Source: Alkalicella caledoniensis | Lineage (GTDB): Bacteria > Bacillota > Proteinivoracia > Proteinivoracales > Proteinivoracaceae | Reading direction: 5' to 3' | Length of the DNA stretch: 64,000 bases | Assembly: GCF_014467015.1 (NCBI RefSeq) | Contig: NZ_CP058559.1 | Coordinates: forward strand, 3,100,001-3,164,000 | Shown here: positions 38,029 to 38,854 of the stretch, one piece after another | Layout of the letters: the number at the start of each line of letters is the position of its first letter | Numbering within the stretch: the first letter of the stretch is position 1 | The notes under the pieces: model-generated | What the model was told of the DNA's origin: nothing | What the model saw: only the letters and a program-made list of their open reading frames with translations | Database searches by the model: none | Position numbers and translations under genes: made by a program

Positions 38029-38253
38029 GGTAATTCCTTCTTTCTTATTGTATTTAATTTCCAACTAGTTATATTCTAGTTGGTTGTGAAAAAACCTTCA
38101 AACTAATATATTAAATTTGTGTTACAAAGTGCTTGTTTTTAATCAGTACTGTTTATAGTAGCATTTTTTAGTAAAGATGTAAAAGGAATTTTTTGAGAAA
38201 TAGTTTATGGGTTAAGTATTTTGGTAAGTATAAATAAAAAGGAGTGAGTGATT

Positions 38254-38829
38254 ATGGAAAAACTTAAAATAGCAACTTTTGGATTAGGCTGATTTTGGGG
38301 GCCAGACGCTCAGTTTGGGCGTTTAGAGGGAGTAGTGAGAACAAAGGTAGGTTATGGTGGAGGTAAGAAAGAAAATCCGACATATGAGGATTTAGGGGAT
38401 CATACGGAAACTTTGCAGGTAGAGTTTGACCCTAGTATGATTTCCTATGAAGAACTTCTAAAGAACTTTTTTTCATTCCACAATCCCACACGACAGGCCT
38501 TTTCGAGACAGTATATGTCTGTTATTTTTTACCACGATGATATCCAAAAAGATACTGCAATTGCCACTAGAGATGCATTTGAACAGGAAAAAAACATAGA
38601 GATAATTACGGATATAGTTCCCTTTACTAACTTCTACCTTGCTGAGTTTTATCATCAGAAATATTATCTACAGGCTAACGGTGAAGCTATGGATTATTTA
38701 AAGGATATCTTTAAAACACTCCAGGAGTTTCTAGATTCTCCTGCCATAACAAAGATAAATGGAGAAGCTCCATACAGTGAAAGGGAAGGGGAATTGATGG
38801 AGAGGATAAAGAGAATCATTAACAGCTAG
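38254..38829 (+). CDS. msrA: Selenoprotein peptide methionine sulfoxide reductase MsrA (UGA = selenocysteine 13)
   Basis: Reduces the S-form of methionine sulfoxide in proteins. Reading TGA 38290-38292 through gives 191 residues starting MEKLKIATFGLG-Sec-FWGPDAQ, exactly where canonical MsrA has GCFWG. The rest of the family pattern follows: TKVGYGGG, NPTYEDLGDHTETLQVEFDP, FHQKYYLQ-type tail (FYHQKYYLQ). AAAAGGAGTG precedes the ATG. A bacterial SECIS-like hairpin sits directly after the UGA. There is no cysteine anywhere in the protein, so no resolving thiol. Standard gene callers would start at GTG 38335 and lose the active site. Sec-MsrA is known from a few Clostridia, including Alkaliphilus oremlandii. 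Confidence 0.92.
38290..38326 (+). promoter_or_regulatory. UGA codon and SECIS-like hairpin of msrA
   Basis: UGA at 38290-38292. From 38306 the arms ACGCTC and GGGCGT (38317-38322) close the loop AGTTT, with one U-G pair; the stem extends outward with G-U and A-U pairs to about 38302/38326. The apical loop begins 19 bases after the UGA and has the G and U residues common in bacterial SECIS loops, inside the expected distance for SelB-directed recoding. Confidence 0.75.
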
Positions 38830-38854
38830 CAAGCGCCTTGAGCGCTTGCTTTTT
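38828..38854 (+). terminator. Terminator after msrA
   Basis: AGCAAGCGC, loop cttga, GCGCTTGCT, TTTT. The left arm overlaps the msrA stop codon. Confidence 0.88.

Follow-up and report, generated by a model that had tools for sequence, protein, structure and literature searches.

An msrA frame of Alkalicella caledoniensis that contains an in-frame TGA and has no cysteine codon raises the question of whether it encodes a genuine selenoprotein and, if so, how such an enzyme would be regenerated. The frame lies on the forward strand of the window, the 64,000-nucleotide stretch of contig NZ_CP058559.1 analysed here (positions 3,100,001 to 3,164,000), and runs at 38254-38829 from ATG at 38254 to TAG at 38827-38829, preceded by an AGGAG ribosome-binding site (38240-38244) located 9 nt 5' of the start. 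Translated with TGA as selenocysteine (Sec), it gives a protein of 191 residues with one Sec and zero Cys, which is recognised by PF01625 and TIGR00401. The TGA is codon 13 (38290-38292), occupies the position of the catalytic Cys of MsrA in the motif GLG-U-FWG, and aligns with residue 16 of CoMsrA, the crystallised MsrA of Alkaliphilus (Clostridium) oremlandii OhILAs (PDB 4LWJ, 4LWK, 4LWL, 4LWM, 4U66 and 4W8C). By alignment and profile match, the remainder of the catalytic domain covers residues 14 to ~143 (38293-38682), with all alignment-invariant residues present including Glu52 (38407-38409), the counterpart of CoMsrA Glu55. The ribosome site, the position of the TGA and the 191 residues devoid of cysteine, and thus of a resolving thiol, had been pointed out in the initial annotation and were borne out by the frame as described. 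An intrinsic terminator-like hairpin of 9 bp followed by TTTT (38828-38850, forward strand) lies directly 3' of msrA, which suggests that it is probably the sole gene of its transcript; as read from the translations, the adjacent genes code for a membrane protein (minus strand) and a peptidase of the M3 type. The gene, its recoding and its family are near certain, and it is highly probable that the feature as a whole is a true CoMsrA-type MsrA selenoprotein, with UGA decoded as Sec and with recycling by a glutaredoxin-like protein as the most likely route, the catalytic cycle, the dimer and glutaredoxin recycling being carried over by analogy from CoMsrA.

The simplest objection is that the TGA is an ordinary stop, leaving either a decayed msrA or a restart at GTG 38335 that would yield a fragment without the nucleophile. 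Such an internal GTG frame does exist, and TGA terminates 2 of the 46 long frames of the window. Against this, the PF01625 match in the profile search of the genome runs across the codon (E 1.6e-39, one TGA inside), and the 178 codons that follow are uninterrupted and keep all active-site residues. With C substituted for U, the protein scores 143 bits with PF01625 (cut-off 23.7) and 131 bits with TIGR00401 (cut-off 108.1). The same PF01625 search returned only one MsrA in the 3.70-Mb, one-contig genome, namely the copy in the window, and the recurrence of this TGA at the equivalent codon of 16 diverged homologues, a hairpin kept only in the Sec forms (see below) and a complete Sec machinery likewise speak against termination, which is therefore considered very improbable. 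A pseudogene was rejected in view of the intact frame, the recurring TGA and the conserved hairpin. Thirteen TGA-bridged frames occur in the window, msrA being the only one recognised as a real gene by inspection.

The initial annotation had named the absence of selA, selB, selC or selD as a finding that would overturn the assignment, and all four were found in the genome. Profile searches detected selA (555 bits), selB (386 bits) and selD (366 bits) in a cluster at 2.181-2.186 Mb (G000 C1 2181301 to about 2186700), and a tRNA-Sec with anticodon TCA was identified 3' of selD by ARAGORN and Rfam (RF01852, 73 bits). Counting MsrA, at least four selenoproteins are predicted in this genome. The others are SelD, whose frame also contains a TGA, and the glycine reductase proteins GrdA and GrdB, in which the TGA falls at Sec-type positions (CFV-U-TAA and T-U-GTC; L070:7447-8478 and L152:10411-12206 for the three proteins). 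Reassignment of TGA to another residue was rejected because tRNA-Sec is present and some long frames continue to use TGA as their stop; it is also countered by the Sec-type location of the TGA codons in SelD, GrdA and GrdB. A gene for a LysR-type regulator lies between selB and selD (L070:6554-7462), a placement that might tie sel expression to a signal.

Just 3' of the UGA, a putative bacterial SECIS hairpin was delineated by folding and comparison at 38304-38324 (forward strand), with a 9-bp stem (38304-38312/38316-38324) and a GUU apical loop (38313-38315). The bSECIS model, as given in PMC13188914, calls for a loop of 3-9 nt with a G within its first two positions, a stem of 4-16 bp, a distance of 16-37 nt from the UGA and a minimum free energy of at most -7.5. 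The window hairpin agrees with all of these constraints, with its 3-nt GUU loop, 9 bp, a UGA-to-loop spacing of 20 nt and -9.9 kcal/mol. This energy is good, not unique, being equalled by 7 of the 2296 TGA triplets of the window, itself counted. Segments of 38-62 nt that include the UGA folded into competing structures with weak z-scores, so the hairpin was judged by comparison and not by energy; an Rfam scan of the window returned no matches.

The comparison was based on 17 Sec-MsrA loci of the family, i.e. those of 16 genomes of a same-phylum sample, the window genome included, and one from Syntrophomonas (L016). Their RNAalifold consensus comprises the top five stem pairs and the GUU loop, and 91.8% of the consensus cells are paired, as opposed to at most 60% after sliding by 1-3 columns. 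An A-U to G-C compensation was observed at one pair in four sequences, and the observed covariation score was reached by no shuffle; the covariation is best regarded as modest, given that the same stretch codes for protein. Of the 17 Sec homologues, 16 preserve at least four of the five core pairs. The 18 TGA loci that were scored form 4.4 of these pairs on average, and 12 of them form all five; L096 and the outlier L106 do not fit the conserved stem. In contrast, the 31 Cys members of the clade, mostly haloarchaea (with three Bacillota) that are interrelated and not independent, retain a mean of 2.0 pairs and none retains all five, despite the near-identical peptide CFWGPDAQFG. The SECIS-like hairpin proposed earlier is thus supported by its conserved pairing in Sec homologues. 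The same contrast bears on the possibility that a TGC or TGT Cys codon was misread as TGA through a sequencing or assembly error. Beyond the general possibility of such errors, nothing favours this explanation, and both the hairpin, present here and absent from 31/31 Cys members, and the occurrence of TGA at the same codon in independent genomes make it extremely unlikely. A trace of the RNA structure also appears to be visible in the protein: in the alignment, the residue following DAQFG is Ala in nearly all clade Cys forms and in only one of the 17 Sec forms (L096).

The relationship to CoMsrA was then assessed by sequence and by structure. All best solved relatives by sequence are CoMsrA entries (E ~1e-51), the next MsrA reaching 1e-25. 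An AlphaFold2 model with a mean pLDDT of 95.5, for which the window protein and related loci served as input, matched full-length 4LWJ over 186 columns in Foldseek, with a TM score of 0.89, 46% identity and an E value of 1.3e-22, whereas the match to canonical MsrA gave a TM score of about 0.7 and concerned mainly the catalytic domain. Because the match extends over full-length 4LWJ, a C-terminal helical domain that packs against the catalytic domain is predicted at approximately residues 144-191 (38683-38826, forward strand). This domain, shared with CoMsrA and missing from canonical MsrA, is special to CoMsrA and required for its activity (PMC4333827). Both proteins have an N-terminal MsrA domain with one Sec at the GUFWG site and no Cys, CoMsrA being longer (209 versus 191 residues). 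The canonical 2-Cys and 3-Cys enzymes of Escherichia coli and Mycobacterium tuberculosis have the catalytic fold and invariant residues in common with the window MsrA but possess a resolving Cys and use Trx as reductant (PMC4479559). By description, the window MsrA resembles 1-Cys MsrA, exemplified by the Synechocystis enzyme as cited in PMC4479559, in having no resolving Cys and in depending on an outside reductant, with the differences that the nucleophile here is Sec and that a helical domain is present. The window MsrA is of the 1-Cys class, with Sec replacing Cys and a predicted C-terminal helical domain added.

That one protein of this length has no cysteine is not surprising, the chance for 190 residues in this window ranging from 0.17 (Poisson) to 0.33 (real segments), and is weak evidence alone. 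It becomes meaningful because the resolving Cys is missing clade-wide. Zero Cys was found in 10/17 Sec members and is thus common in the clade; where Cys does occur, it belongs to a lipoprotein signal or a fused MsrB portion, or is found at scattered sites. Nor is 'no cysteine at all' a novelty, since CoMsrA, the closest relative and the Sec-MsrA that the initial annotation cited as established in A. oremlandii, is published with one catalytic Sec and zero Cys (PMC4333827). The window MsrA is thus a well-supported addition to the CoMsrA-type selenoenzymes that leaves the known picture of Sec-MsrA chemistry unchanged.

In the proposed cycle, SelB and tRNA(Sec) would decode UGA codon 13 as Sec, guided by the hairpin just 3', and the selenolate would attack methionine-S-sulfoxide at its sulfur, Glu52 probably serving as proton donor. 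Methionine would be released, leaving a selenenic acid on the enzyme. Without a resolving Cys an internal bond would be impossible, and an outside thiol would be needed for regeneration, in line with the external reductant invoked in the initial annotation. This thiol would most likely be provided by a glutaredoxin-like protein, for which the candidate is a 90-residue CPFC protein, acting either directly or after formation of a transient diselenide homodimer. The scheme follows that described for CoMsrA, in which attack on the sulfoxide yields a sulfenic acid that is reduced by glutaredoxin, directly or via an intermolecular dimer of catalytic residues (PMC4333827, PMC4479559). The CPFC protein, which has no Sec, is the one glutaredoxin-family protein above the cut-off in the profile search of the genome and reaches the cut-off of none of the NCBIfam glutaredoxin models.

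How far the analogy extends to the reductant is less certain. According to PMC7642778, the glutaredoxin of A. oremlandii is itself a selenoprotein, whereas the profile search found no TGA-containing glutaredoxin in the window genome. Matches to the glutaredoxin family with TGA inside occur in 8/16 Sec-MsrA genomes (one of them weak), the window genome not among them; these counts in related loci derive from the profile search, as a motif scan gave mostly noise. A PF04262 search for GshA was also negative in the window genome, GshA being present in 2 of the 19 genomes searched. Two Trx/TrxR pairs that might serve as alternative reductants are encoded, one of them next to the grd genes, which precede the sel cluster by ~9 kb. 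The lack of a recognisable GshA and of a Sec-glutaredoxin, along with these two pairs, would suit direct recycling by thioredoxin or a small thiol, the former having been suggested in the initial annotation. This is rather unlikely, since CoMsrA, which has the same architecture, is reduced by glutaredoxin (partly via the homodimer) and not by Trx (PMC4479559), and the genome keeps its CPFC glutaredoxin-like protein. Recycling by the glutaredoxin-like protein hence remains preferred. A broader proposal, that the enzyme works without glutathione or Sec-glutaredoxin and is reduced either via a TrxR-fed, Cys-only glutaredoxin-like protein or directly by thioredoxin, may be put forward tentatively, at somewhat less than even chances. 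If true, the redox partnership would be unlike that of the paired MsrA and glutaredoxin selenoproteins of A. oremlandii, and the host offers a test case for the reduction of a cysteine-free, apparently glutathione-independent Sec-MsrA.

Sec-MsrA is less rare than initially stated. A profile search found an MsrA match in 178 of 398 same-phylum genomes, and 16 of these 178, including the window genome, carry a TGA copy belonging to the helical-domain clade, with at least two further TGA-containing MsrA matches outside it. In the tree, the helical-domain proteins are split off by a 100/100 branch that unites the 17 Sec members with 13 Cys rows, among them haloarchaea and Bacillota MsrA-MsrB fusions, so that CoMsrA-type enzymes form a broad clade whose Cys members come from both Bacillota and haloarchaea. 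The haloarchaeal MsrA (L017-L041 and L043-L044; Halorubrum, Halonotius and Halobellus) have a CoMsrA-type C-terminal extension that matches to approximately residue 172 and a sole, catalytic Cys, differing from the window MsrA in Cys for Sec and in the absence of SECIS pairing; by contrast, the MsrA of Haloferax volcanii has at least four Cys (PMC5587910). Their clustering with the bacterial Sec-MsrA suggests gene transfer between the groups. One TGA-containing MsrA, L106 (G353:C77:7068-7505), has the motif GGG-U-FWN and two Cys, lacks the helical domain and is placed among canonical MsrA, which suggests a possibly separate origin of Sec in MsrA. Apparent MsrB-MsrA(Sec) fusions were observed in L086 and L094, with MsrB in the upstream part of the frame, and apparent fusions of a helical-domain MsrA(Cys) to MsrB in L080 and L089, with MsrB in the downstream part. 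On the reverse strand of L079 (1282-2106), a Sec-MsrA is preceded by a signal peptide with a lipobox-like Cys (LLITGC) and is apparently an exported lipoprotein.
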